Origin: a bacterium
GTDB lineage: Bacteria; Gemmatimonadota; Gemmatimonadetes; Gemmatimonadales; Gemmatimonadaceae
Reading direction: 5' to 3'
Length of the DNA: 32,299 bases
Assembly: GCA_902812375.1 (NCBI GenBank)
Contig: CADDZN010000003.1
Span: forward strand, 1 to 32,299
Part shown: one piece after another, positions 669-32,022 of the stretch
How the letters are laid out: each line of letters begins with the position of its first letter
Position numbering within the stretch: position 1 is the first letter of the stretch
Made by a program: the position numbers and the translations under genes
Notes under the pieces: model-generated
Told to the model about the DNA's origin: nothing
Seen by the model: the letters and a program-made list of their open reading frames with translations, nothing else
The model's database searches: none

Positions 669-2243
669 TTATGAGTGCTGTCGCCTTTTGAGGGTCTTCG
701 ATAGGCGCTTCAGGATGCGATCGACGAGGTCTTGAGCGGTCTGAAGGTCGGGCTGCGCTCGATAAATTGAATGCAGCACTTCGGTTAAGACAATACGTTG
801 AGAAGGTGTGAACTGTTCTAAGCCAGATCGTCTGGCGCGGCTGTCACGTGCGCGGACAAGCCGCTGTCTCAGCAGCTTGATCCTTCGTTCATAGCCAATC
901 TGCTGATCCGCTGCGATTACCGAGCGCCTCGCCAGGCGCTCGATTTGCTGGATATCGCGATCAAGTTGTGCAGCCAGCTTTGAAGCCGCACTGTCGGCGA
1001 GGCTTGCCCGCGCAAACAGCTTGATCTTTTGCTCACAACCGACGAGACCAGTTTCAATGTGGCGAATCAGATTTCTGTGGATGGAAGTCGCGCGACATCT
1101 CTGAGCTATTTCTCTAGTGTGAGGAGCGAGGTGATTAATGAGGTCAAGATAAAAGGAATTCTGCTCGAAGTGATCCCGCCTGCCATTTGGCAGAATACGC
1201 GAGTCAATGACGTGAGTTTCGGCAACACACCAGGAGTTGAATCGCTCCTCCGGGAACAAGGGCGCAAGCAGGTCGTTGCTTCCGATCTGAATGTCTCCGA
1301 CTCTAAATCGCCAGCCACCAATTAGAGAGTTCGACGGCAAAGCTCCCCGGTAATCGGAATGCAAAACCCATGTGACTGCGGCCGTACCGCCATCGCGACC
1401 AGGCGTGCAGATCGTTGTAAGTTCGAGAAAGTTAGTTTGTCCTGATTTTCCAAAAGGAATCGAATTGCGATGCGGACGCACAACAGTCCCCAGCCCGTCA
1501 ACATTTATGTCTATCGCTCCAATCTTTACGCCGTGAGATTGCAGCAATGAGCCGATCTGCTCCGCAAATTGAAACTCAGGATGGAACGGCACGGGCGCAA
1601 CTTGGGCCAGGTAATCAAACACCGCCTGCGGGTTTAATAGTCGATCATCTCTGTGGCGAACAACTCCCTTCAGCTCTACCTCGAAAAAGCGTTTCGGCCA
1701 TCCAAAGGCAGGGATTTCTCGTGCCTCTACGCTGTTCATCACAGTTTCGTGGAGATCTCTGGTTTGGGTAGACCGAAGCATGGATCGAACGTCGCGGCCA
1801 CTCCAACGGAGTTCATGTACCGTTTTCTCATGCTCCTGTCGCGACCGAAACACTATCTCCTGAGCGAATGCGAGCCCTGCTAGTCTGCCAACACCGCGGA
1901 ATCCACGCGCCTGTGTGCCACGTTTCTGACTCCCTCCCAACGCCATTAGACGCTGAGCAAACTCAGTCTCGCTAAGCCCTATTCCGTCGTCCCTAATCGC
2001 AATCGTTCGCGATGCAGAATCGATCTTGATCTGCACCACACCAGAACATTCGGACAGTCCAGCGATGCGAGCTAGGTCAATAGCGTCTGCAGAGTTTTGA
2101 ACATATTCGCGATACATCGCCATCGGATCGACATACATAGAACTGCTGAGCAACTCCAGAATGTCCTTGCCGATGACTAGCGGACGCTCCGGACGTGACC
2201 AAGGCGTTTCGGGCTTGGCTAAAGCAACAAGAGTAGCCGTCAT
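669..2243 (-). CDS. GHKL/HSP90-type ATPase
   Basis: Predicted ATPase of 524 aa with an N-terminal HSP90-like ATP-binding fold. The N-box is visible as E46, N50 and D53 in REYVQNSADAI, the G1 box as DDGIG (85-89) and a glycine-rich lid as GFRGVG (114-119), so ATP binding looks intact. The rest is arginine-rich and predicted helical near the C-terminus (about 390-520) and does not look like the HtpG middle and C-terminal dimerisation domains; HtpG is also longer (about 620 aa). It is the last gene of the leftward operon, and its ATG overlaps the radical SAM stop by 4 bp (ATGA), indicating translational coupling. GHKL ATPases outside HtpG, MutL, gyrase and kinases recur in defence islands. Its partner here is unknown; a role as energy-using regulator or effector of the island is inference. 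Confidence 0.8.
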   Translation of the reverse strand: MTATLVALAKPETPWSRPERPLVIGKDILELLSSSMYVDPMAMYREYVQNSADAIDLARIAGLSECSGVVQIKIDSASRTIAIRDDGIGLSETEFAQRLMALGGSQKRGTQARGFRGVGRLAGLAFAQEIVFRSRQEHEKTVHELRWSGRDVRSMLRSTQTRDLHETVMNSVEAREIPAFGWPKRFFEVELKGVVRHRDDRLLNPQAVFDYLAQVAPVPFHPEFQFAEQIGSLLQSHGVKIGAIDINVDGLGTVVRPHRNSIPFGKSGQTNFLELTTICTPGRDGGTAAVTWVLHSDYRGALPSNSLIGGWRFRVGDIQIGSNDLLAPLFPEERFNSWCVAETHVIDSRILPNGRRDHFEQNSFYLDLINHLAPHTREIAQRCRATSIHRNLIRHIETGLVGCEQKIKLFARASLADSAASKLAAQLDRDIQQIERLARRSVIAADQQIGYERRIKLLRQRLVRARDSRARRSGLEQFTPSQRIVLTEVLHSIYRAQPDLQTAQDLVDRILKRLSKTLKRRQHS

Positions 2244-3829
2244 GCGGGCACTCCTTGCATATCAGGGATGCTGTCGTCCTCTTCATCGAGGCCGGCATCC
2301 TCAACTCGTTCGTCGTCCGGAACGACTGCGATGCTGCCCTCCTTTTGCAATGACCAGATACGTGCTTCATCTTGCTTTGGGAGCGGTCTGTAAAAGTTCA
2401 AAATGCTCCTTAGCCTAGGATTAGCGGTTCTTCTCGGCAAGTTGACGATGTTTCTGGGGTCCACGCACGACAAAAGCTGCAGCAATTCGTGGCGCTCATC
2501 TACAGAGAGTCTCGCAAAATCCGCCTGGAATTCGTCGAACTCCGGTTTTCCGTCTAAGCGCTCGTACCAGTCCCGATTGAAGATGAAATGATGTGGGCGC
2601 AAAAGGATCTGCTCAAACTCGTCGGGCGAATCGCCAAAAGCGCGCTTGAAGAACGCTGGCGCCCCACTCACCACGCCGTGAGTGGCCTGAAGAATGATCT
2701 GCATGGAACGTAGCTGATATTTCGTCCACTTTTCCCCGATATGAGAACGGTTCGGCAGGTCCGTCGGTTGATAACGCATCGGAAAAGACCAGATTCGAAT
2801 CCCAAGTTCCTCGTTCAATGCCACATTTAGACGCATGCGCTCAAAGAGGTCGGCAGGAGAATCGTGGAAGTTGTACAGCATGTAGTTGGACAGCTCCGTT
2901 AGCCCAAACGAGTGCGCGAATCGGATTGCTTGCTCGTACGGTTTGCGCAAGCCAATATGATCGAATGCGATCCGCAGCGGCTTCAGACAAATAGTCGATA
3001 GCTCGCGCAGGTACATCGAATCTTTGCACAATATGCGCGCATCGACACCCTGATTGAAATCCACACGCCGTTGGACAGGTGTACGACCTCGGTGCAACTT
3101 TGCACCCGGCACAAAACCTAGATCGCGAATTTCAGCGATTATTTCCTTGAATCGCGGTGACGCTACGACATTGTTGTCCATCAGCGTTAGGTCTTTTTTA
3201 GGGCCATACAGCTCATCGACACCTCGAACGATTGCAGAAATTGACTCTGTGTCTCGCTGATCGCCTTCGAGCTTTGGCACGCCGCAGAAACTGCACTTGC
3301 GAATGCACCCCCGCGATGCGTAAGCAAAATATGCGTCGCGCACCGGGTACTTGTAAGCAATCTGATCGAGGATGCTGTAGTCGGGAATGAGATCTTCAAT
3401 CGGCTTTCCCAAGCGGTCCTCGGAATAGAGCTCCTCGGAGAAGTCGTCCAATTGAAGAGAAATGGCGGGAGGAGCACTCAGCAGCCCCTTGATAAACCTA
3501 ATCCCTCTCCATCGAGGCTCTGCCAAGAAACGCTCATGCATCAATGACGCGGCTATACCGCCGACGAAGACTTTGTCGGAAAAGCCGTTCGCCGCGCAAA
3601 GAGCGAAATCAATGCTTCGAGCAATTCGATCAAACTCAAACGAAAAAAGTGTCGTTACGTATATGCGATCCCACGCCGCGGCTAAAACTGCCGGATCTTC
3701 CCCCTTGATGAATCTCACTACATCGTTCTTGCCTCGCGGACCGTGGTACTGCGCGATCTTCATCAAACCGAGCGGTGGATATTTGTTCTTATAGCCAGGC
3801 TCGATTAGGAGAATGTTCTTCTTCGACAT
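2240..3829 (-). CDS. Radical SAM protein with B12-binding-like N-terminus
   Basis: Predicted radical S-adenosylmethionine enzyme of 529 aa. The 4Fe-4S cluster motif CIRKCSFC is present at C175, C179 and C182 (Cx3Cx2C), preceded by YASRG as is usual for the family. The N-terminus (LLIEPGY...PPLGLMKIAQYH, about 7-29, and FVGGIAAS, 88-95) resembles the Rossmann-like cobalamin-binding domain that precedes many radical SAM cores, but I do not see the DxHxxG cobalamin-ligand motif, so cobalamin use is uncertain. About 200 residues follow the core and I cannot assign them. It is the middle gene of the leftward operon: its ATG shares one base with the upstream stop (TAATG) and its stop overlaps the next ATG. 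Embedded between a DGQHR protein and a GHKL ATPase, it is the likely chemistry-performing enzyme of the island. The substrate is unknown; DNA or a nucleotide is a guess from context. Confidence 0.85.
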   Translation of the reverse strand: MSKKNILLIEPGYKNKYPPLGLMKIAQYHGPRGKNDVVRFIKGEDPAVLAAAWDRIYVTTLFSFEFDRIARSIDFALCAANGFSDKVFVGGIAASLMHERFLAEPRWRGIRFIKGLLSAPPAISLQLDDFSEELYSEDRLGKPIEDLIPDYSILDQIAYKYPVRDAYFAYASRGCIRKCSFCGVPKLEGDQRDTESISAIVRGVDELYGPKKDLTLMDNNVVASPRFKEIIAEIRDLGFVPGAKLHRGRTPVQRRVDFNQGVDARILCKDSMYLRELSTICLKPLRIAFDHIGLRKPYEQAIRFAHSFGLTELSNYMLYNFHDSPADLFERMRLNVALNEELGIRIWSFPMRYQPTDLPNRSHIGEKWTKYQLRSMQIILQATHGVVSGAPAFFKRAFGDSPDEFEQILLRPHHFIFNRDWYERLDGKPEFDEFQADFARLSVDERHELLQLLSCVDPRNIVNLPRRTANPRLRSILNFYRPLPKQDEARIWSLQKEGSIAVVPDDERVEDAGLDEEDDSIPDMQGVPA

Positions 3830-4866
3830 TAGCTCACCACCTTGAGCTGTCGCTTCTTGCGCACGTCTCTAATGAGGCTGACGACAGATGAAACGCCACC
3901 CTCACCTCCAAATCCTTTCAATGGGCCTTGGCTGCCCCAGTCGATCTCTGAAATAAATTCCGCCAGTTTGGCAGTGAAGTAGCGTTTATCGCAATTTTGG
4001 CCCATTGCTTCGAGGTATAGGTCAGCCGCAATCGTCATCAGTGCATAGACACCTACGCCTTTGTTAACGAGCGAGTGACGGGGATTATCCCAAGGCTCCC
4101 GAAGCACCACGGCAACTGCAGCCCAAAAGTCGAGAACGATTTGAGCGGCGGTGTCGGCGGTATATTGGCGGAGCACCTTCGTTTGCGCCAAGAACCGCTT
4201 GATTGCCTTCTGCATCGTTCGCAACGAAGCCCTTCGCATTAGACCTGACGTGCTGGTCCCGCCCAAATCAAGCTGCCGATACCACGGCGATTCTGGATTG
4301 TTATTCAGGTGGAGCGCTATGAAGAGTTCCGGGCGCTCACCAGCCAAATCGCTTGCGAGAGTCGCATCGTGAAAGTCCAGCAAACTGGTACTTAGCCCTT
4401 TGGCCTTGCTATTAATGACATTGAAGATCTCCATCTCCTCGCGCTCATTCAGCCCGATAAAACACATGAACGGAAGCTCGATATCAACATCATTTAAATA
4501 ACCAAGTCGGTGCTGACAATCGACCTGCGTTAGCACTTTGCCGCTGCCTTGCGCGATTTCTAATGTCGCCATTCCGCCGGGACGCTCGTTGAGGCGCCAT
4601 GCTTTGTCACGCCTAGGACGAACATTGAACGTGAGCGGAATTGTGGCGCTTCGCTCTTCCTGGATGTACTTGCGAAAATCGAGACTGTGCTGAGAGTTGA
4701 AGCGGCGCTGGTAGCCGCGACCGGTATCTTCATTGAGAACGTCTGCGTAGCTGACTGAATAGAGAAGGCTTGCAGGAGCAAATCCCACCAACACCTTCCG
4801 CTGGGCAGAGCGACCGACAAGACCACAGAGACGAATGCTGTTCAAAATAGTCGGTTCCACGTGCAT
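3829..4866 (-). CDS. DGQHR-domain (DndB-like) protein 1
   Basis: Protein of 345 aa with a DGQHR-type motif, here DCQHR at 116-120 (the glycine is replaced by cysteine), followed by the family pattern of a hydrophobic strand and EMEIFNVINSKAKGLS at about 147-162. The C-terminal FGGEGGVSSVVSLIR is also typical. DGQHR proteins include DndB, which controls transcription of DNA phosphorothioation genes. No DndA, C, D or E partner is present here. It is the first gene of the leftward operon and is followed with no gap by the radical SAM gene. The ATG at 4866 has no Shine-Dalgarno sequence; instead the upstream region holds two perfect inverted repeats, compatible with autoregulation. GTG at codon 3 is an alternative start. 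A second DGQHR protein lies at 9011-9994. Confidence 0.82.
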   Translation of the reverse strand: MHVEPTILNSIRLCGLVGRSAQRKVLVGFAPASLLYSVSYADVLNEDTGRGYQRRFNSQHSLDFRKYIQEERSATIPLTFNVRPRRDKAWRLNERPGGMATLEIAQGSGKVLTQVDCQHRLGYLNDVDIELPFMCFIGLNEREEMEIFNVINSKAKGLSTSLLDFHDATLASDLAGERPELFIALHLNNNPESPWYRQLDLGGTSTSGLMRRASLRTMQKAIKRFLAQTKVLRQYTADTAAQIVLDFWAAVAVVLREPWDNPRHSLVNKGVGVYALMTIAADLYLEAMGQNCDKRYFTAKLAEFISEIDWGSQGPLKGFGGEGGVSSVVSLIRDVRKKRQLKVVS

Positions 4867-4868
4867 AA

Positions 4869-4889
4869 ATTGCAGTAATTCGCTGCAAT
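4869..4889. promoter_or_regulatory. Inverted repeat just upstream of DGQHR protein 1
   Basis: A perfect 7-bp inverted repeat, ATTGCAG-N7-CTGCAAT, lies 3 bp upstream of the ATG at 4866, where a ribosome-binding site would normally sit. It could be an operator half of the divergent control region or, in RNA, a small hairpin over the start site. The regulator is not known; the adjacent DndB-like protein is the obvious candidate. Confidence 0.5.
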
Positions 4890-4891
4890 TG

Positions 4892-4915
4892 TGACATGTT
4901 TCGGATGCATGTCAA
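4892..4915 (-). promoter_or_regulatory. Palindromic operator containing a -35 box (leftward promoter)
   Basis: A perfect inverted repeat, TGACATG-N9-CATGTCA (4892-4914), lies in the divergent intergenic region. Read leftward, it begins with the consensus -35 hexamer TTGACA (complement of 4910-4915). The sequence 17 bp further on, ACAATT, is only a weak -10 match. A protein bound to this palindrome would cover the -35 element of the leftward operon. Confidence 0.55.
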
Positions 4916-5070
4916 GCAGAAGATTTGCCGGGTCATTCGAGTCCGCACCTCTCTCGGCTAACTGTCTGTGTTTTCAACGCTTGCGGCGGAAATCGGACTT
5001 GAAATCGTCTGATTTTCATGACAGAGTCCAAAGACCAGCTAGTCACAATTTTTTCTGTGTGGAGGGCCAC

Positions 5071-6096
5071 GTGGCGACTGCCGGAGTCAGTCCAGCGCCC
5101 GGCACGCTTCAGTTAGTGCCGGTTAACGAAATTCATCTTGATCGTGATAACCCAAGAATTCGGAAGTTCTTGGAGATGTATGGCGAAGAGCCGACGCCCG
5201 AACAGTTTTACCTTGCGCTGGGAGCAGCCGGTGATGAGGAGGGCGATAACAGCGCAACATTCGAAAAACTCAAGAACTCGATCCAAACCAATGGCGGCAT
5301 CATTCAGCCCGTAATTCTTAACCGCAAGAAAGGAAAGTACGTCTGCGTCGAAGGCAATACGCGCGTCGCGCTATACAAGAAGTTTCATTCCGAAAAAGTA
5401 AAAGGAACGTGGACGCACATTCCTGCTCTCGTATACGAGGAAATGCAGGATTTCCAAATCGATTCAATACGGCTGCAAGTTCACCTGGTTGGTACTCGAC
5501 AATGGGACCCGTATTCCAAGGCCAAGTACCTCTACCACCTTCGCAATAGCAAGAACGTACCGCTACATATGCTCGTCGAATACTGCGGCGGACGTGAACG
5601 CGAGGTCATTGAAAGCATCAATGCATTCTCCGACATGGAGACATACTACCGACCCATCGTTCAGGAAGGCAGTTTTGATACCAGCCGATTCAGCGGTTTC
5701 GTGGAACTCCAGAAACCCAATGTGAAGCAGTCAATCGCTGAAACAGGTTTTACGCTTACGAACTTCGCCGAGTGGATACGTGACGAGAAACTGTATCCGT
5801 TGAACACTGTTCGTTTGCTTCCGCGAATTCTTCGGAACCAAAAGGCACGCGACGCTTTTCTCAAGCACGACGCCCGCAAGGCATCGGAATTGCTAGACCG
5901 GCCGGCTCTGTCGAAGGCTCTCTCCGATGCCAACATTGCTCAATTGGCCTCCGCCCTGACTCAAGCAATTTATCAACTGCCTTGGCTCGAAGCTGAGAAA
6001 CTCCGCAAGGACCAAAGCGGAGAAACAGCGCAGCTATTGCACGAAACGTTAGATGCCTTGAAAGGCGTGCTCAAGGCACCTGGAGATACGGACTGA
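5071..6096 (+). CDS. ParB/Srx-like domain protein 1
   Basis: Protein of 341 aa with a ParB/sulfiredoxin-like N-terminal domain: LVPVNEIHLDRDNPRIRKF near the start, GGIIQPVILN and the signature CVEGNTRVALYKK, equivalent to the GExR/GxxR box of ParB-type folds. I chose the GTG at 5071 because GGAGGG lies at 5061-5066 with good spacing and the conserved domain starts soon after; the frame is open back to 4891, but that would add 60 residues running through the operator. After the domain comes a helical region with the pattern WDPYSKAKYLYHL, which recurs in the ParB-like protein at 7988-9001 (WAPYEQAGFLYRR), so the two are paralogues. No ParA gene is near, arguing against a partition locus. First gene of the rightward operon; the next gene starts immediately after its stop. 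Confidence 0.8.
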   Translation: MATAGVSPAPGTLQLVPVNEIHLDRDNPRIRKFLEMYGEEPTPEQFYLALGAAGDEEGDNSATFEKLKNSIQTNGGIIQPVILNRKKGKYVCVEGNTRVALYKKFHSEKVKGTWTHIPALVYEEMQDFQIDSIRLQVHLVGTRQWDPYSKAKYLYHLRNSKNVPLHMLVEYCGGREREVIESINAFSDMETYYRPIVQEGSFDTSRFSGFVELQKPNVKQSIAETGFTLTNFAEWIRDEKLYPLNTVRLLPRILRNQKARDAFLKHDARKASELLDRPALSKALSDANIAQLASALTQAIYQLPWLEAEKLRKDQSGETAQLLHETLDALKGVLKAPGDTD

Positions 6097-10886: not shown

Positions 10887-11891
10887 TCATGAATCGATCT
10901 GTTCCGAGAAGCTTACAAGCAAATCATGCAGACGCTGATCTCTCTTTGCATCTTCCTCAATTTTCTGAATCGAATGGAGCACGGTTGTGCGATCTTTCGC
11001 CAGTTCGCGACCGATCTCCGAAGCTGAGAATCCCGCCTCGGCTGCGAGGTACATGGCAATCTGTCGAGGAAACACAATCGTTGGTGAATTGCTCCTTGTC
11101 CGCAGGCCGTCAACACTCATTCCGAAATGCTTGCTTACTATGCGTGAAATCTTTGACACGCTCACCGTTGGCGCGAGGTTCTCAATGATTCTGTCGAGCA
11201 TCGCTACGTTTGCGGTTTGAGATAGAGCGGTGCAACGTGCAACAAGTGTCGTGAAAATGCCCAGAATATGCCCAAATGAGAACCTCTCGTTAGAGGCGAG
11301 AGCGCTCCCAACATCCTCGGGCAGCACAAACTCTACGTCTGCGGCCTTCGTCCGAAGAATGGCAAGCTTCGCCCGAAAATCCAGCGGCTCCAATATCGCC
11401 ACGCTTCCGGAAATGAGAACGTCTCGCAATGATTCGTCGAACGTCAATTCGTCTGGTTCTAGTTTGCTTGAAATGACGATTATCTTGTCTTGATCACTGG
11501 ACAGGACTGTTAAGGTGTGCAGGAATTCCCCCTGCGCCCAGCGTCTCGTCTGCAAGAACTGAACATCGTCCACCAGCAGAGCATCGATCTTCCGCACACC
11601 ACGACGGAATCCCTCGATGTTTCCCCGATGCGTGGCCTCACGCATGGCATTGACGAAGTCTTCGGCAGTTATGAAGCGCACTTCCAACGTTGGTTGTTCG
11701 TCATTTAGCACTCGCACAATCGCATGGAGTAAGTGCGTTTTGCCGGTACTGGTGGGACCGCAAAACGTGGTGACTTTTCGAGCCTCACCCGAAGCAACTG
11801 CCTTAGCTGTCTGAAGCGCGTGCTCGTTCGTCGGTGCCGCTACAAAGCTCTCGAAAGTATGGCGCGGGTTTAGTGGCTTTGGGTTCGGCAT
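10887..11891 (-). CDS. DnaA-like AAA+ ATPase lacking domains I-II
   Basis: Protein of 334 aa that aligns in pattern to DnaA domains III and IV. LNPRHTFESFV at the start equals the beginning of domain III; Walker A is GPTSTGKT (45-52); Walker B is LLVDDVQFL with D108-D109; the C-terminus carries a domain IV helix-turn-helix ending in ELAKDRTTVLHSIQKIEED, matching the DnaA signature that contacts DnaA boxes (usually GGRDHTTVLHA). The usual N-terminal domain I (DnaB contact) and linker are missing, so full initiator function is unlikely. The ATG at 11891 is poorly supported by a ribosome site. The gene converges on the rightward operon with a 58-bp gap. It could be a replication or copy-control ATPase of a mobile element, or a DnaA-derived transcription regulator. 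Confidence 0.85.
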   Translation of the reverse strand: MPNPKPLNPRHTFESFVAAPTNEHALQTAKAVASGEARKVTTFCGPTSTGKTHLLHAIVRVLNDEQPTLEVRFITAEDFVNAMREATHRGNIEGFRRGVRKIDALLVDDVQFLQTRRWAQGEFLHTLTVLSSDQDKIIVISSKLEPDELTFDESLRDVLISGSVAILEPLDFRAKLAILRTKAADVEFVLPEDVGSALASNERFSFGHILGIFTTLVARCTALSQTANVAMLDRIIENLAPTVSVSKISRIVSKHFGMSVDGLRTRSNSPTIVFPRQIAMYLAAEAGFSASEIGRELAKDRTTVLHSIQKIEEDAKRDQRLHDLLVSFSEQIDS

Positions 11892-15534: not shown

Positions 15535-16253
15535 CTAGTCGTGGAGGATGATGTTGAGCAGTGAGTTGTGAACCTGCATTTCGCCGTTGTACTCAATGAA
15601 GCCGAGCTTGCGAAAGCGGTTCAGGAAAAAAGTAACTCGTGGACGCGTGGTCCCGATCATCTCGGCCAGCATTTGATGGCTCATTTTGGGAATTACGGTT
15701 TCCGGCTTTCCTGGTTTGCCGAACTGAGCAAGCAAAAGAAGAACCCGCGCCAGCCGCTTCTCGCTTGAGTTGAATAGCTGGTCAACCAGGTCGTCCTGAA
15801 TACGCGCGTTGCGTGCCAGCAAGAATGCTGTAAACAGATCGGAGAACTCGTGTCCTTGGTGCAGAACGCGAAGCATTTCGTCGCGATCAATGCGCAGAAC
15901 CGTGCAAGGTCCGACGGCAGCGGCTGTGGTGATGCGAACGGAGTGGGCGCTAGTGACGCAGCCCTCGCCAACAAAGTCGCCGGGACCGAGTAGTGCGACA
16001 GTCGCCTCCTTACCCGCCTTGGAAGTGATGGTGAGCCGCACCCGGCCTTTCTGAATGTAGAAGACGCTATCAGCGGCAGCCCCGTGACAAAACAGCACTT
16101 GCTTCGCCCGGAACTCAAGGACCTGTCTGCCGAGACCTACCGTCGCTAAGAATTTTGCAGGATCAAATTGGGAGACGCTATTGGGCTTCAGCGCGGCGAG
16201 AGCATCGCTCGCCCCCCCCGGCGACGGGCCGTGATTTTGAACGGTTTTGGCAT
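15535..16253 (-). CDS. Crp/Fnr-family regulator with probable frameshift in a G8 tract
   Basis: Cyclic-nucleotide-binding-like regulator. The frame ending at 15535 gives the effector domain (VLFCHGAAADSVFYIQKG, GPGDFVGEGC) and a C-terminal winged helix (MSHQMLAEMIGTTRPRVTFFLNRFRKLGFI). The only start codon in that frame is GTG at 16098, which would cut off the first beta strand. Upstream, the same frame is open and reads like the normal family N-terminus (FDPAKFLATVGLGRQVLEF) but has no start before a stop at 16258. ATG at 16253 opens MPKPFKITARRR in another frame, and adding one G to the eight-G tract (complement of 16212-16219) joins the two. So the gene is either frameshifted, switched by slippage, or miscounted in sequencing. 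No haem or Fe-S cysteine cluster is obvious. Confidence 0.8.
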
Positions 16254-16630: not shown

Positions 16631-16647
16631 GAACTGGTTTCAAAAAT
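16631..16647 (+). repeat. Left terminal inverted repeat of the IS
   Basis: GAACTGGTTTCAAAAAT; 16 of 17 bases match the complement of 17487-17503. Preceded by TA. Confidence 0.88.
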
Positions 16648-17439
16648 ACCTCAGCGTGACCAACAGACACGCCAGATGACAGAAGCCTTGAAACACGCTC
16701 AGGATGCGGTCTTGCCGCACCTGCAGGCGGCGCAAGTTGCCAAACCAGGCAAACGTGCGCTCGATTTTCCAGCGCCGCCGGTACCGCCGCAGCTTGCGAC
16801 CGTCCTGATACGGCTTCGAGCGTTTGTTCCAGCGATAGGGAACAATCAGCTCGATCCCGCGCCGCCGCAACCGTCGCCGCAGCGGGTCGCTGTCGTAGCC
16901 GCGATCGGCGATGATCCGCTCGGGTCGCATGCGCGGCCGGCCGCGACCGCAGCGCGGAACCCGAACGCGCGCCAGCGTCGGCTCGGCCAAGGTCACCTCG
17001 TTCGGCGAGGCAGACGTGACCGAAACTCCCAGAGGTATACCCTCGCCATCGGCCAATACCACGGCTTTCGTGCCCTTGCCGCGCTTTGTTTTGCCAACCG
17101 CGAGGCCCCCTTTTTTGCCGGGAAGAACGTCGCGTCGAGAAACGTTTCTTCCCACTTCAGCAGCCCGCGCTGGTCGAGCGTGCCGAGCAGCGCTCGCCAG
17201 GCGCGCTCCCAGACGCCGCGCTCTTCCCACTGCCGCAAGCGCCGCCAGCAGGTCACGGGACTGGGATATTGCGGCGGCAGGTCGCGCCACCGCGCCCCGG
17301 AGCGCAACACCCAGAGAATGCCTTCGACACAGGCCCGCTTGTCCGCCGCCGGTCGGCCGCGCCGTTTCGCGCGCGGCGTCGGCAATAAATTTTCAATCGC
17401 CGCCCACTGCTCGTTGGTCAGCCTCATGGCCAAACTCAA
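16640..17439 (-). CDS. IS5-family transposase, two frames joined by -1 frameshift
   Basis: DDE transposase encoded in two overlapping frames. OrfA (16993-17439) holds the N-terminal DUF4096-like helix-turn-helix: LTNEQWAAIENLLP, VEGILWVLRSGARWRDLPP. OrfB (16640-17290) holds the catalytic core: FLDATFF (first Asp), IIADRGYDSDPLRR (second Asp) and RRRWKIERTFAWFGNLRR (Glu). Both frames share the FFPAKKG segment, where the coding strand has A6 (complement of 17111-17116); slippage by -1 there produces the OrfAB fusion of about 265 aa, the normal length for this group. The start is ATG at 17439, or at 17427. The frame pattern matches programmed frameshifting rather than decay. Confidence 0.85.
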
Positions 17440-26089: not shown

Positions 26090-26142
26090 TGCCGTCCGAG
26101 TAGCGTTGCGGAAGATGTTCACAATCACCTCGTGACCACCTT

Positions 26143-26184
26143 GGGAGCAGGCTCTGTCAGCACTCACATGCTGACCCTGCTCCC
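26143..26184 (+). promoter_or_regulatory. Large leader hairpin before the VirB-like operon
   Basis: Two stems with perfect pairing: GGGAGCAGG (26143-26151) with CCTGCTCCC (26176-26184), and GTCAGC (26156-26161) with GCTGAC (26170-26175). They are separated by a one-sided CTCT bulge and closed by an 8-base loop, giving fifteen base pairs in total. No U-run follows, so it is not a typical intrinsic terminator. Position 50 bp upstream of virB2 suggests a leader structure or a protein-binding or processing site. Confidence 0.65.
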
Positions 26185-26233
26185 GCTTCTTCGCTCCGGC
26201 AGAGTCCCGACTTCTCTATCTGAGGAGGACGAG

Positions 26234-26545
26234 ATGTTTCGGGTAATCAGCCGTGAGCGACGACTAGCAGCGCGTCGAGTCGCACGCTCTATCGGATCAG
26301 TCATCGTGACATTGGTGCTCGGCTCGCCTGCGTTCGCCCAGGTTGGCGGCGACCGGGTCACTTCATTTCTTTCCAATTCCCTGAGCTACGCCCAGGGTCT
26401 CGGCATTTTTGGTGCCGGATTCCTCGTGATCTGGGCGGTCGCAAACATCGCTCGTGAACGGCCGAGCGGAAAACAGTGGGCTGGGGCAGGCGGCGCGCTG
26501 CTGCTGTCGTCCATGTTGCAACTCCTTCGCACGTTCGCAGGTTGA
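26234..26545 (+). CDS. virB2: VirB2/TrbC-like pilin
   Basis: Protein of 103 aa from the ATG at 26234, preceded by GAGGAGG (26222-26228). It has the pilin layout: a long basic signal region with cleavage likely after SPAFA, then two hydrophobic helices (LGIFGAGFLVIWAVANIA and GAGGALLLSSMLQLL) separated by a charged loop (RERPSGKQ). This would be the pilus subunit of a type IV secretion system. Identification rests on topology and on being directly followed by virB3- and virB4-like genes. Confidence 0.8.
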   Translation: MFRVISRERRLAARRVARSIGSVIVTLVLGSPAFAQVGGDRVTSFLSNSLSYAQGLGIFGAGFLVIWAVANIARERPSGKQWAGAGGALLLSSMLQLLRTFAG

Positions 26546-26548
26546 TCC

Positions 26549-26884
26549 ATGCCATTGCGACTCAAACCCGTAGCACGTTCGCTCTCAGTCCGCGCTGAGT
26601 TCTTCGGATTGGAACTGGAAGACTGGGGATTCGTGATCGCCTGGGCAATAGTCATCCGGCTGATCGGGGATCACATCCATCGTGTGCTAGTCGGATTCCT
26701 GCCAGTTTCAACCGTGATGACGTATGGCTCAGCCGCCATTTTGGTCGTACTGATCCGCTGGGCTAAACATGGCAAGCCGCGTGGCTATCTCGTCGCGTGG
26801 ATTCAGCACCACTTCCGCCCGAAAGCGCACAGCGCTCGTGCTAACGGCCCAGCGCTGCCTTACTTGATCGAGAACGAAGAATGA
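26549..26884 (+). CDS. virB3: VirB3-like inner-membrane protein
   Basis: Protein of 111 aa with two hydrophobic segments (WGFVIAWAIVIRLIGD and TVMTYGSAAILVVLI) and a short hydrophilic C-terminus; the usual VirB3 size. It starts 3 bp after the pilin stop, and its own stop overlaps the virB4 ATG (ATGA). VirB3 works with VirB4 in pilus assembly. Confidence 0.78.
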   Translation: MPLRLKPVARSLSVRAEFFGLELEDWGFVIAWAIVIRLIGDHIHRVLVGFLPVSTVMTYGSAAILVVLIRWAKHGKPRGYLVAWIQHHFRPKAHSARANGPALPYLIENEE

Positions 26885-29628
26885 TTGAAGCATCGACAGT
26901 TCATGTCATTGCGGCGCTCATTAGCGCGCTGGCTATCGTGATATTTGCTTTGGCAGTTTTCATACCGCAAGCCGCCGCACACCGCACCAGCGAGACGTGC
27001 AACCAGAAAGGGCTTTCATCGTTGGCCGCACGAATTCCCATTTCGGACATTCGCGACGATCTGATCGTGCGGCGTGATGGCTCATTCTGTGCGGGATGGG
27101 AATGCGTCGGAACCGCTACTCAGTTTGCCGATGCGGAACGCCTTGAATCACTCAGCAGTTCGCTCGATGCGTTCATTAAGGGAATCCGTCATCCGGAAAT
27201 TGAACTTCAGTTCCGTTACCAAATCGGCTATGAGACGCCAAAGGTTCTCGATGAGAGAAAGGCCCAAAGCAATTCCGTCAATTCGCCTGCCGCCTGGCTC
27301 GAAGAGAACCGCGTCTCATTCTGGCGCTCGGCAATTGATGCCGGCCAGATTCGCTCGATCAGGCTTCTGGTCTTCTTGGCTTGGAAGCCCTCGCGCACGT
27401 GGGAGACGCGCTCGGCTGGTTCGCGATTCGCAGCGGCGTTCTGGCAGGGCCTCGCGCAAGAAAGATTCGGGAAATTGCCGAGCATTCTTAGGACTGCGTT
27501 GAACGAATCGCGTACGAAGGCTCTCGTTCAGAGGAATCGGCAGGAACACAATCGACTTGTTGCCGAGTTCAATCAGATCCTCGAAACCTACCGCATCGCT
27601 CTTGAAACGATCACGCCTGTTCGTCGTCTCGACGAACCTGAGCTAGTGCAACTGCTTTATCGGTCGCTGAATCCGGAAGAACGTCAGATTCCGACTCGCA
27701 AACCGCAGGATTCACTGCTCAACACAGATTGGTCAGAGGGCGTTCGCTATCTCGATCTCGGCGGCGTACTCAAGGCAGTCGTCACGCTATCAGAATTGCC
27801 GGAAGCGACTTTCGCCTCGCTACTGCGACCATTGATGGCACTCGACTTCTCGTCAGAGATCGTTCTGAATATTCGCGTTCCGAATCAGACCGCCAAGGTA
27901 CGCAAGCTGCGGAGACTGCTGAAGAAGAGCCTGGCGTTTCAATTGCGGAAAGACGGCAGCCGTCGGCGTGACTTCCAAGCAGCGGCTCTTGAGAAAGACA
28001 CGGTTGACACGCTGACTTCCGCCATCACGTCATCACAGCGGATTACCGAAATCGAACTCGCTGTCCTTGTTTCGGCTTCGACAATTGCGCGCACATCCGC
28101 CGAACGTGAGAAGGCTGAACACGAACTGGCGCAACGAGCCGAGTCAGTCCTGCAGGCATTTGGGCAATTGAACGGCGCCCGAGGATACCAGGAAGACACG
28201 GCGCTTCTTCCGACATTCATTTCATTCCTGCCAGGCGTGCACGGAGTACGCAAAACCAATCGCGAATTTACTTTGCTTTCCGGCCAGTCCGCGGATTTTG
28301 TGCCAGTTGAGATTCCTTGGACCGGCACTCACGATGACACACCTGCCTTCCTGAGCAGGACTCGCGAAGGTACCCTGCTGCGCTTCAATCCGTTCAGCGC
28401 CGAGCTGACGAATGGAAATGTTCTTGTCACCGGCAAGACCGGCTCGGGCAAATCCTTCCTGATTAAGCAGCTCCTTTTACAGTTCCAGGTGTTGAACCCA
28501 CGAATCGCGATTGTCACGAAAGGCGCTGACTATCGCGCTGTGGTCGAGCTTCTGGGCGGTCAATATCGCGAAATCGGCCTTGCCACAAGGCTGGTCAAGA
28601 ATCCCTGGGATCTAAGAAGCGACAGCCTAGGACCCGACGCAACACAGATCGCTGGTGTCGCATCGCTGGCCTTCCACATGGCCGGAAAAACTGGATCAGA
28701 TGATGCCGTCACACTCAACTTCCTGGAGAAGGCAGTTCGCATGACTTACGAGCGTCTACTCGCCATAGGCAAGACGCCTCGTTTCTCTGATCTCAAGTGG
28801 ACGCTCGAACACTATTCCTTCGAGAACGCAGTCATCGAGCAGCTTGCGCACATGCTGGTCCTCAAGCTGAACCGCTGGACTGGCGAGGGTGTGTGTGCCC
28901 AACTCTTCGACCGCGAGACAAGCCCGGAACTCGAAAAGACTGAAGACATCATCTGTTACGACATCGACGGACTCAAAGATTCTCCTGAACTGCAAACTGC
29001 TGTTGCCTTCACTATTGCTCGCGCAGTTGACCAACAGATCGGTCGCAAAGATTCGAATGGCACTCTGCGGCCCACGATAGCTGTTTTCGATGAAGTCTGG
29101 GCGATGCTGGCAGATCCCGTATTGGGAACGCAGATTCTCAATGCGTTCCGCACCGCGCGTAAGCGATACGGCTCAATCATCGCGGCGAGTCAGGGCATTG
29201 AAGACTTCGTCGGCACTGCTGAATCGCCGCACACGATTGGCTTGGCAATTCTGCAAAACACTGACGCGAAGTTCATCTGTGCTCAACTCGGCGAACTCTC
29301 GCGCTTACGTGAAGTCTTACATCTCTCCGAACCCGCTCTCGAAGCGGTGAAAGAACTGCGCAATGCGCCAGGTCATTTCGCCGAAAGCTACTTGCTTGTC
29401 GCCAATCAGCCTGAGTCGAGCACGGTCATTCAGCTCACGGCAACACCATTCGACTACTGGGCGACGACCAGTCATCCGCTCGAAACAGATTTCCGGGAGA
29501 AATTCGCAAAAGAGCATCCCGAGTTGTCCGCATTGGAAGTCATCTATCGGCTTGGCGTGATGCACCCGAAGGGAATCACGTCAGCTCCAGCAAACAATCG
29601 AAAGGGGATTTATGCAACAGCTTCGTAG
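26881..29628 (+). CDS. virB4: VirB4-like conjugation ATPase
   Basis: Protein of 915 aa, the energy-providing ATPase of the type IV secretion machine. Walker A is GKTGSGKS (518-525) and Walker B is TIAVFDEVWAM with D737-E738, followed by the RKRYGSIIAASQGIEDF block of VirB4/TraC proteins. An N-terminal transmembrane segment (about 6-30) precedes the domain, which is seen in some VirB4 families but not in the Agrobacterium protein. It is translationally coupled to virB3 upstream; the virB5-like gene starts within its 3' end (17-bp overlap). Confidence 0.92.
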   Translation: MIEASTVHVIAALISALAIVIFALAVFIPQAAAHRTSETCNQKGLSSLAARIPISDIRDDLIVRRDGSFCAGWECVGTATQFADAERLESLSSSLDAFIKGIRHPEIELQFRYQIGYETPKVLDERKAQSNSVNSPAAWLEENRVSFWRSAIDAGQIRSIRLLVFLAWKPSRTWETRSAGSRFAAAFWQGLAQERFGKLPSILRTALNESRTKALVQRNRQEHNRLVAEFNQILETYRIALETITPVRRLDEPELVQLLYRSLNPEERQIPTRKPQDSLLNTDWSEGVRYLDLGGVLKAVVTLSELPEATFASLLRPLMALDFSSEIVLNIRVPNQTAKVRKLRRLLKKSLAFQLRKDGSRRRDFQAAALEKDTVDTLTSAITSSQRITEIELAVLVSASTIARTSAEREKAEHELAQRAESVLQAFGQLNGARGYQEDTALLPTFISFLPGVHGVRKTNREFTLLSGQSADFVPVEIPWTGTHDDTPAFLSRTREGTLLRFNPFSAELTNGNVLVTGKTGSGKSFLIKQLLLQFQVLNPRIAIVTKGADYRAVVELLGGQYREIGLATRLVKNPWDLRSDSLGPDATQIAGVASLAFHMAGKTGSDDAVTLNFLEKAVRMTYERLLAIGKTPRFSDLKWTLEHYSFENAVIEQLAHMLVLKLNRWTGEGVCAQLFDRETSPELEKTEDIICYDIDGLKDSPELQTAVAFTIARAVDQQIGRKDSNGTLRPTIAVFDEVWAMLADPVLGTQILNAFRTARKRYGSIIAASQGIEDFVGTAESPHTIGLAILQNTDAKFICAQLGELSRLREVLHLSEPALEAVKELRNAPGHFAESYLLVANQPESSTVIQLTATPFDYWATTSHPLETDFREKFAKEHPELSALEVIYRLGVMHPKGITSAPANNRKGIYATAS

Positions 29629-30373
29629 AAGGATTGCGCTCGCCGGCGCGGTGCTGGTGGCCACACTTGTGCTTCCTGTGGCGGCGCACGCGATCTTCGG
29701 GACGATGCCTGTCATTGACTGGACGGCAGTTGCGCGTATCGGTGAACAGATCGGCGTTTCGCGCGACACGCTGAATACCCTCGGTCTTTACGTCCAGCAA
29801 TACAACCGAATTAATTACGGCGTTCAAGAAGGAGTTGTGCTCGTTCGGGGGCGGAGCCTGCAGGGCCTACTAAACCGTGCAGTCGGGAGCGAGTTTCCTG
29901 AATTCCAGCAATTGCAACGCGACTTCCGCAATGTCGTTATCGATTCTTCGATGATTCGTCAAGACATTGAGATTTCCTACGGCGCAACGTCCGGCAACTT
30001 CCCGCTGATTCGCAAGAAGAGAATCGATGCGGCGGATGCAACTGCAACGCTGGGTTTGTACGACGCCTCCCAGATGGAGCTAGTGTCAGAACAGGAAGAA
30101 ATGGACGCAAATGACATCGAGGCCAGAGCGGTGGACGCGAGTCCTGGCGGTGCGGCGAAGCTGTCGGCTGCCGCCAATGGGGCACTGCTGAGGTCTCAAG
30201 CGTACAACCAGAGACTTTTGGCGCGATTGATGCGAATGCAGGCGCTCTCCTTAGCACGCGAGAATTCCATTGAGAAGGAGCAGGAGCAGACGCGACAGGA
30301 CCAAGTGAATGCAGTCGGAGGCATGGTCGGAAGTATGCAGTTGTCCTACGGAATTGGTGACAGGGTGCGGTAA
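29612..30373 (+). CDS. virB5: VirB5/TrbJ-like secreted protein
   Basis: Protein of 253 aa with a clear signal peptide (RRRIALAGAVLVATLVLPVA, cleavage likely after AHA) and a mostly helical mature part with long Gln/Arg-rich coiled-coil segments (about 170-240: QAYNQRLLARLMRMQALSLA and the RENSIEKEQEQTRQDQ block). This is the pattern of VirB5/TrbJ minor pilus proteins. AGGGG lies before the ATG. The stop overlaps the next ATG (TAATG). Confidence 0.78.
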   Translation: MQQLRRRIALAGAVLVATLVLPVAAHAIFGTMPVIDWTAVARIGEQIGVSRDTLNTLGLYVQQYNRINYGVQEGVVLVRGRSLQGLLNRAVGSEFPEFQQLQRDFRNVVIDSSMIRQDIEISYGATSGNFPLIRKKRIDAADATATLGLYDASQMELVSEQEEMDANDIEARAVDASPGGAAKLSAAANGALLRSQAYNQRLLARLMRMQALSLARENSIEKEQEQTRQDQVNAVGGMVGSMQLSYGIGDRVR

Positions 30374-31332
30374 TGCTTGATCTTGGCAGCATCGGTCGAT
30401 TCTTAGCGGCGCTCGGCGGACTGTGGGACCGCTCAGAACAGTACCTCCCGCTGATGATGGGAATCGCTTTCCCTCTTGCTGCACTGGTGTTCACGTTCAG
30501 CATGTTGCAGGCGTTCCTGCAAGACAACACAGAGGAAGATTATTTCCGCATTATGGCCAGGTTCGGCATCACGCTGGCAGTTCTGGGCGACTATCAAGAC
30601 CTCTTCGCAAAATTCAACTCAATGAGTTCCGATCTGGCCCACCGGTTCGCCGATCCAAACAGCTTCCAGAACTTTTTCCAACAGGTTCAGTCGCAGTTCA
30701 GCGATCTGAACGGAGTGCTCGCCTTCGCAACGAGTTGGGTCTCAAGCATCGTTGCGATGCTGATCTTGTTATCTGCCGTAATTCTTGTTATCGCCTATGT
30801 CGGCTTGGTCGCTGCTCAAGCCATTGCCGTCGTTCTGCTCTATGTCTTTGGTCCACTTCTCATCGCCCTGATACCAAGCCGGCAGCTCAGTTCGGTCACC
30901 TACGGCTATTTGCGAGCACTGCTGCAGGTGCTTTTGTGGCCAGCCGTATGGAGCATCATGTTTGCCCTGTTCACCGGGGCGCTGGTGAAAGTGTTTGTCT
31001 CCGGCCCAGGGATAAATCTGGTCCCATCAATGTTGCTTGTCTTGATGGCGATCTTGCTCACTCAGATTCCTCGCCTCACCGGATATCTCACAACTGGAGC
31101 ATTGAATGCGACAGGTGCAGCACTTTCGGCTTTGATAACTGCTGGCATGGCTTACGTGAGTTATCGCGTAGTTGAGACAGGCGCGTCGGCTGCGCTTGCT
31201 TATGCAACTGGTGGCGCTGCCGTCACAGTTCCGCAAGCAGTCGGACATTTCGCGCGAAGTCGAAGCACGGAAACGACCAGCGTTCCGCCGCAAACAAACT
31301 TCGTACCCCTACCTCCACCGGCAGCCGCATGA
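30373..31332 (+). CDS. virB6: VirB6/TrbL-like polytopic membrane protein
   Basis: Protein of 319 aa with at least five or six hydrophobic segments, including LMMGIAFPLAALVFTFSML (about 35-55), a long double span around 125-170, WPAVWSIMFALFTGALVKVF (about 192-211), and two near the C-terminus (about 215-285). Ala/Gly-rich segments and a Pro-rich tail end it. It would be the inner-membrane channel component of the secretion system, with the usual VirB6 topology. Coupled to virB5. Confidence 0.85.
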   Translation: MLDLGSIGRFLAALGGLWDRSEQYLPLMMGIAFPLAALVFTFSMLQAFLQDNTEEDYFRIMARFGITLAVLGDYQDLFAKFNSMSSDLAHRFADPNSFQNFFQQVQSQFSDLNGVLAFATSWVSSIVAMLILLSAVILVIAYVGLVAAQAIAVVLLYVFGPLLIALIPSRQLSSVTYGYLRALLQVLLWPAVWSIMFALFTGALVKVFVSGPGINLVPSMLLVLMAILLTQIPRLTGYLTTGALNATGAALSALITAGMAYVSYRVVETGASAALAYATGGAAVTVPQAVGHFARSRSTETTSVPPQTNFVPLPPPAAA

Positions 31333-31344
31333 AAGGTATCAACC

Positions 31345-32022
31345 ATGAGCACTGAAACTCTGATTTCGGATCAACTCCAACAGGCCAAGTTCGAGCTGGG
31401 GGACTACCCAGAGTTTTACAGCCATCTGGCGATTCAGGCGCGCCGCGCATCACGAGTTGCACTGGTCGCGTGCGGTGTCGCACTTATTGCGATTGTTTCG
31501 GCCATCCTCGCGCAACTGAGACCGCCCATACTCCTCCGCGTGCAGGACGGCAAAGTTTCCGCGCTGACCGGCTCCGGCGTCGATATTGCTCAGAACGCGG
31601 CGCAACAGCAGCCGGATGAGTCTGAAAAGCTGGCCTTCGTGAGTGGCTTCCTCGACCACTTCGTGAACATCGATCCGGTGACGGTGAAGCGAAACACAAC
31701 ACTCGCACTAAACGAAATGACGGGTACTCTGCGCCAGCAGATCCTTGCTCAACTGAACGAGCAGCATTTCGTTGACACAGTGCGCGATAACAACGTCACC
31801 GCAACGCTCGCTGTTAAATCCGCAGAGCTGGTGAATGGCGATCCTTACACCGCCGTTGTCTTTGGGCAGAAGCGGCTAACAACCCTTATCAATGGTCAGG
31901 AAAACAAGAAAGAACTGCTGGTGAAGTACGTCATCCGGCTTGCGCCGGTGCCACGCGCCGCCAGCAACGGGTGGAGTGGCCTCGAAGTGGCTGACTACAA
32001 GGAGGAGGTGTTGCAGCAATGA
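31345..32022 (+). CDS. virB8: VirB8-like inner-membrane protein
   Basis: Protein of 225 aa with a short cytoplasmic N-terminus, one transmembrane segment (VALVACGVALIAIVSAILAQ, about 38-57) and a periplasmic domain of the NTF2-like VirB8 type (about 85-215, including LAFVSGFLDHFVNIDPVTV). It nucleates assembly of the secretion complex with VirB9 and VirB10. The next gene overlaps its stop by 4 bp. Confidence 0.82.
   Translation: MSTETLISDQLQQAKFELGDYPEFYSHLAIQARRASRVALVACGVALIAIVSAILAQLRPPILLRVQDGKVSALTGSGVDIAQNAAQQQPDESEKLAFVSGFLDHFVNIDPVTVKRNTTLALNEMTGTLRQQILAQLNEQHFVDTVRDNNVTATLAVKSAELVNGDPYTAVVFGQKRLTTLINGQENKKELLVKYVIRLAPVPRAASNGWSGLEVADYKEEVLQQ

Follow-up and report, generated by a model that had tools for sequence, protein, structure and literature searches.

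The window, a stretch of 32,299 nucleotides from a 3.23-Mb draft genome, carries two divergent operons separated by a 204-bp intergenic region. The minus-strand operon begins with the gene for a DGQHR-domain protein (DGQHR1), and the plus-strand operon encodes, in order, a ParB-like protein, a 138-aa protein, an SNF2 helicase, a second ParB-like protein, DGQHR2, and a 275-aa protein. Two inverted repeats are located between DGQHR1 and the first ParB-like gene (ParB1). The features discussed below are as follows.

669-2243, minus strand: GHKL/HSP90-type ATPase-domain protein, third gene of the DGQHR1 operon (PF13589, 4.3e-10)
2240-3829, minus strand: radical SAM-like protein, second gene of the DGQHR1 operon (weak PF04055 match)
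3829-4866, minus strand: DGQHR1 (345 aa counted from ATG 4866, though translation may begin a few codons later), proposed to regulate its own operon
4867-4891: predicted main operator O1, 25-bp palindrome AA-NN-TGCA-KY-N5-RM-TGCA-NN-TT, with the core TGCA-N9-TGCA at 4871-4887; it encloses the proximal repeat
4868-4890: proximal repeat AATTGCAG-N7-CTGCAATT, 8-bp arms, read from the sequence
4888-4915, minus strand: predicted leftward promoter, TTGACA (4915-4910), spacer of 16, CACAAT (4893-4888), TG before the -10 box
4892-4914: distal repeat TGACATG-N9-CATGTCA, present but not conserved
4906-4909: TGCA, an auxiliary half-site that immediately follows the -35 box and lies 22 bp from O1 on its upstream side
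5071-6096, plus strand: ParB-like protein, first gene of the divergent operon, probable GTG start at 5071 after GGAGGG

DGQHR1 scored above the curated cut-offs of TIGR03187 (5.3e-38, 131.3 bits, cut-off 58.85) and PF14072 (1.1e-8, 35.0 bits, cut-off 29.1), which places it by profile in the DGQHR-domain/DndB superfamily. The family motif DGQHR is replaced by DCQHR in all 35 copies of our alignment (34 of the 36 relatives with an open frame plus the window, L028 and L039 being left out) and in 12 of 12 further loci (47/47), while the long DGQHR proteins of L111, L118, and L119 and the DGQHR2 of the window keep DGQHR. DCQHR is a variant motif and not the trace of a lost domain. Its invariant cysteine is Cys117 in the window protein, and a redox or metal role for it is conceivable. 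The DndB equivalog TIGR03233 gave no match to DGQHR1 at E values up to 0.01, and no DndC, DndD, or DndE was matched among the ten genes scanned beside it (radical SAM, GHKL, ParB-like, SNF2, and others). By these profiles DGQHR1 is a relative of DndB from a distinct clade and not DndB proper.

In the structure model of DGQHR1 (pLDDT 86.5), the N-domain appears ParB/sulfiredoxin-like and the C-domain is helical. The top matches in a fold comparison were ParB, Noc, KorB, and sulfiredoxin (Z 4.7 to 7.9, all below 8), the best being ParB N-domains with Z up to 7.9. Foldseek returned no match for the model at E ≤ 0.001, and no sequence relatives of DGQHR1 were found among solved structures. A DndB structure was not among the fold-comparison matches, which is no argument against kinship. 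The comparison is only suggestive of ParB-type DNA-binding proteins, including the repressor KorB. Residue 209 (L/M) had stood out by co-variation as a candidate recognition residue (z 10.2) and was rejected after phylogenetic control: the tree holds 5-6 independent supported pairs, ~1.7 of which change the same way and 1.0 the other way.

DGQHR1 was found in none of 60 other genomes drawn from the genus, family, and order of the window, so the island was probably acquired. It is adjoined by a shortened DnaA-like protein with ATPase and DNA-binding domains (10887-11891, 334 aa, 231.8 bits against the DnaA cut-off of 343.9). Further along, a DDE transposase (16640-17290) and conjugation-type genes (26132-32022; TraG-like P-loop, TrbL/VirB6, VirB8) suggest a mobile element. 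A CRP-like regulator with cNMP-binding and Crp-type helix-turn-helix domains (15535-16098) is also present and is not needed to explain the operator described below.

Both perfect inverted repeats reported by the first-pass annotation in the divergent promoter are present at the positions claimed, the proximal one having arms 1 bp longer than first noted, and the distal one overlaps the leftward -35 box as described. In dinucleotide shuffles of the 204-bp region, perfect repeats (arm of at least 7, spacer of at most 12) numbered one or more in 16% of cases and two or more in 1.3%, and an arm of 8 bp arose in 4.5%, so that neither repeat is compelling from the window sequence alone. The leftward TTGACA/CACAAT pair is the sole promoter-like match in 4000-6000; shuffles average 1.4 such matches, and the promoter taken alone is therefore weak evidence.

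Relatives were collected by scanning a species-genome collection with an alignment of three radical SAM proteins (window, L004, and L005). The best 80 of the 155 relatives obtained, together with three further stretches (L028-L030), were searched with nine window proteins; L030 was left out since it lies on the same contig as L103, and L029 gave no match. Among these, DGQHR1 with its start precedes radical SAM-GHKL in 37 loci. Radical SAM and GHKL form a highly conserved core pair, with radical SAM identities of 56-76% (L031-L110). Its partner module can consist of ParB-SNF2(-ParB) genes in either orientation, of two genes for a PIN-like and an ATP-binding protein, or of a ~780-aa DGQHR protein. 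In L147 (2017-3860), the genes upstream of the operator look by eye like recombinase genes, which suggests that the operator travels with the cassette.

The relatives separated the two repeats, the proximal one appearing universal at DGQHR1 and the distal one not conserved. An exact TGCA-N9-TGCA was present at the DGQHR1 start (-80 to +30) in all 38 upstream regions, those of the window and its 37 relatives, against a mean of 0.31 and a maximum of 2 in shuffled regions. When gaps of 0-40 between TGCA pairs were scanned in the 38 sequences, gap 9 occurred in 38, gap 18 in 21, and gap 31 in 18, with a lesser peak at gap 5 (9 of 38) and every remaining gap in 0-4. These peaks reflect a single site accompanied, at a distance of 22 bp, by a full or half repetition of itself.

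Plasmid and viral-contig copies were held out as an independent test, which concerns the TGCA-N9-TGCA core only. The core was exact in 8 of the 9 plasmid copies taken from 12 matches (H2, H7, and H12 seem to duplicate plasmids in this set), and the ninth, pNL1, carries CGCA-N9-TGCA, with one mismatch. Both copies from a viral-contig collection were exact, giving 10/11 held-out copies with an exact core.

A consensus was built from 42 non-redundant sites, 5 of the 47 having been dropped as redundant. The eight TGCA letters are invariant save for one base in one site, and the O1 of the window departs from the consensus at one flank letter (4891). The strict form TGCA[CGT]Y-N5-R[ACG]TGCA was found at the DGQHR1 start in 35 of the 38 loci and missed in 3, a count that is no independent test, as the form was derived from these sites. 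The half-sites also co-vary symmetrically at positions 4 and 12 (28/42 against 18.9 in shuffles, P 0.002), which fits a homodimer but would equally fit a hairpin.

The distal repeat fared differently. Comparing the intergenic repeats across relatives, the check proposed in the first-pass annotation, upheld the proximal core and went against TGACATG-N9-CATGTCA, which none of the 37 relatives carries even when 2 mismatches are allowed (the closest, in L037, has 3). The parts conserved there are the -35 box and the auxiliary TGCA half-site, whose partner in the window (4893-4896) is degenerate, reading TGTC on the minus strand. TGCA stands at -22 from the operator in 18 of the 42 non-redundant sites, against a mean of 0.42 and a maximum of 3 in other registers. 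In regions with several exact sites we anchored on the one whose TGCA at -22 was better, which favors this column both in that count and in the consensus. The unanchored spacing scan shows the same peak (21/38). Likewise counted from the operator, TTGAC stands at -28 in 12/42 sites. The second box as a whole is exact in a few loci only. The distal palindrome therefore appears to combine the -35 box with a half-site and the extended -10 region, which together read as a palindrome by chance, and not to be an operator in its own right.

The strict form had no further match in the 772 kb of the 38 DGQHR1 loci. Across the 797 kb of 44 sister loci that lack an intact DGQHR1 it stood at no promoter, although some of these loci (for example L058, L060, and L085) have just 1-2 kb upstream. 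One strict match occurred in each of three of them, two lying ~517 bp inside radical SAM and one more than 9 kb away. The 44 loci include L070 and L088, both excluded from the 38, the former as its DGQHR1 match spans only residues 238-345 and lacks the motif, the latter as its match is only 23%. Loose matches, none of which satisfied the strict consensus, were rejected as operators: a TGCA-N9-TGCA 44 bp before the radical SAM gene of L086, and matches ~2.1 kb upstream of radical SAM in L040, L041, and L049 and ~1.8 kb upstream in L048. In whole genomes, a 21-bp form was a single site in four of five tested, the fifth having two others; a looser form found two other sites in the window's own genome, both with an A where 0/42 sites have one. 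Absent from promoters where an intact DGQHR1 is lacking and mostly single in genomes, the site accompanies DGQHR1, not the radical SAM or GHKL genes and not a regulon of the host.

Starting from this conserved operator, held in register and linked exclusively to DGQHR1, we propose, with a probability of roughly 0.74, that DGQHR1 binds over the -10 box and transcription start and represses the DGQHR1-radical SAM-GHKL operon to which it belongs; the binding, the sign of regulation, the cooperation, and the signal are what we infer here. The predicted -10 hexamer overlaps the left edge of O1, and the transcription start should therefore fall inside O1, which would be a classic repressor position. 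A DGQHR1 homodimer would contact both TGCA half-sites, which lie 13 bp from each other, together with the AA/TT flanks, and a second dimer or half-dimer would contact the TGCA located 22 bp (~two helical turns) upstream, beside the -35 box. With the -10 box and transcription start covered, RNA polymerase would be shut out and the operon would limit itself. Release might perhaps follow when the ParB/sulfiredoxin-like fold receives a nucleotide or redox signal.

This proposal is made by analogy with DndB of Salmonella enterica, which, according to He et al. 2015 (PMC4507180), controls dndBCDE and does so from a promoter in which it binds two TACG-N10-CGTA boxes. As described there, DndB resembles DGQHR1 in being a DGQHR-superfamily protein encoded first in its operon, with two short palindromic boxes in the promoter, one of them around the transcription start (predicted in our case), and with 4-bp half-sites spaced 9 or 10 bp apart. 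On the same account, the two differ in their sites (TGCA-N9-TGCA at DGQHR1, TACG-N10-CGTA at dndB) and in the genes that accompany them (radical SAM and GHKL versus dndCDE), and binding has been measured for DndB whereas it is predicted for DGQHR1. A later review (PMC10853773) questions whether DndB acts mainly as a transcription factor and how far its regulatory role extends.

The palindrome might instead be read by another, host-encoded regulator, and the fact that no profile of a recognised helix-turn-helix domain matched DGQHR1 speaks for this. Yet the site follows DGQHR1 through hosts that include, by record titles, Acidobacteria, Proteobacteria, Spartobacteria, and Nitrospirae, as well as plasmids, making a single shared host factor unlikely. 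Its singleness in most of the genomes tested and its absence from radical SAM-GHKL loci without DGQHR1 also argue against a host regulator, which we consider improbable.

The first-pass annotation had both palindromes as operators through which DGQHR1 and DGQHR2 control the two divergent operons. In the window, L050, and L056, O1 does lie within 250 bp of both operons. What speaks against the model is that the distal palindrome lacks conservation. The 250 bp before ParB1 were also free of the motif in all 12 co-directional loci where ParB1 has its own upstream region (counting only ParB1 matches above 35% identity with a start found) and in 3 of 3 plasmid copies checked. A close DGQHR2 is present in just 4 of the 37 relatives carrying the operator, which does not support a role for it. 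Control of the divergent ParB operon by O1 is thus not supported by these comparisons, and the model as a whole is very unlikely. The part of it that stands is an operator at the DGQHR1 promoter, which a DndB-like self-control of this operon would fit, given the linkage of the site to DGQHR1 and the DndB precedent.

Slightly less probable still is an RNA hairpin in the leader that would control DGQHR1 translation. The arms are complementary, and the repeat directly precedes the start codon in the window, with 5 bases from core to ATG. The annotation had placed the proximal repeat where the ribosome site should be. But the left half of the repeat is overlapped by the predicted -10 box, and the repeat reaches into the start region, so that only part of it would be transcribed. 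No Shine-Dalgarno sequence was seen there, and a DNA operator offers the simpler explanation. Pairing at the NN steps between TGCA and AA/TT occurs in 17 and 16 of 42 sites, against 15.6 and 13.5 in shuffles, which is near chance and unlike a continuous stem, and Rfam gave no match. Conserved letters with free NN steps would fit protein-DNA contact better than an RNA stem. Finally, the site might serve the mobile cassette in recombination or as a target, which would suit its position at the edge of a DGQHR1-radical SAM-GHKL unit that moves between contexts. But the unit carries no further copy at its other end, the 772 kb contain no other strict match, and the site is locked in register to a -35 box, which makes this the least credible reading.

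Under the autorepression that we favor, DGQHR1 can be compared with several other known systems. DpdB, a DGQHR protein of the Dpd 7-deazaguanine DNA-modification system, is its best PADLOC match (2.6e-16), although DGQHR1 reaches only 59.5 bits on the DpdB model NF041060 against an equivalog cut-off of 300. Unlike in Dpd, no Dpd protein was matched among the ten proteins scanned, save for the two DGQHR proteins and a helicase-domain similarity to DpdE, and PADLOC matched neither the radical SAM nor the GHKL core protein. No published operator for DpdB was found in the open-licence PMC literature.

KorB of plasmid RK2 is a ParB-family transcriptional repressor with its own operator and sliding-clamp behavior. 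The DGQHR1 model appears to share with it a ParB-like N-domain and helical part (8qa9_A, Z 6.3, rmsd 5.0, 188 residues), a match below Z 8 that perhaps reflects just a shared arrangement; for DGQHR1 the repressor role is proposed. The controller proteins of restriction-modification systems are small helix-turn-helix proteins, unlike the 345-aa ParB/sulfiredoxin-like DGQHR1, which would resemble them as a local autoregulator traveling with a mobile defence-like module and limiting it. A broader and rather doubtful extension of the analogy would make the DCQHR clade, as proteins of the ParB/sulfiredoxin fold, a self-contained switch across phyla: dimers would sit on TGCA-N9-TGCA with a register-locked partner 22 bp away, the invariant cysteine would sense nucleotide or redox state, and the switch would restrain a radical SAM-GHKL module that modifies DNA or acts in defence. 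If so, the module would be held back as by controller proteins, allowing safe entry into new hosts.

Among DGQHR-family proteins, we found a published operator in the open-licence PMC literature for DndB alone, and no account of a TGCA-N9-TGCA operator or of a radical SAM-GHKL module was found there. The site thus looks like a strongly conserved and apparently new operator of a DndB-like but distinct clade. A second clade with a near-invariant operator across phyla and plasmids suggests that self-control may be a wider job of DGQHR proteins. The 25-bp site offers a ready probe for the control of this apparently undescribed mobile module, and plasmid copies have workable hosts, such as rhizobia and Novosphingobium aromaticivorans DSM 12444 (pNL1). 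Plasmid-borne relatives whose site is exact include EB232_RS35170 of Mesorhizobium sp. NZP2077 and RLEG_RS34130 of Rhizobium leguminosarum WSM1325.

A single operator for all DGQHR proteins was rejected, as TGCA-N9-TGCA was absent from the upstream regions of six true DndB genes and two below the DndB cut-off, from six distant DGQHR loci, and from seven long-DGQHR upstream regions. The published TACG-N10-CGTA was not found exactly in any of the six true DndB regions sampled, nor in the two DndB-like regions below the cut-off, so that the analogy rests on one species. A DndB-like gene below the cut-off, in L138, is preceded at ~60 bp by a perfect repeat, TGTTGCAGTGG-N4-CCACTGCAACA, whose half-site resembles the TGCAG of the window site with wider spacing. 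In L135, two TTTTACGTAAAA boxes lie just before a true dndB, within an inverted repeat with 20-bp arms and a 1-base spacer, and are possibly a variant of the TACG-type DndB box.
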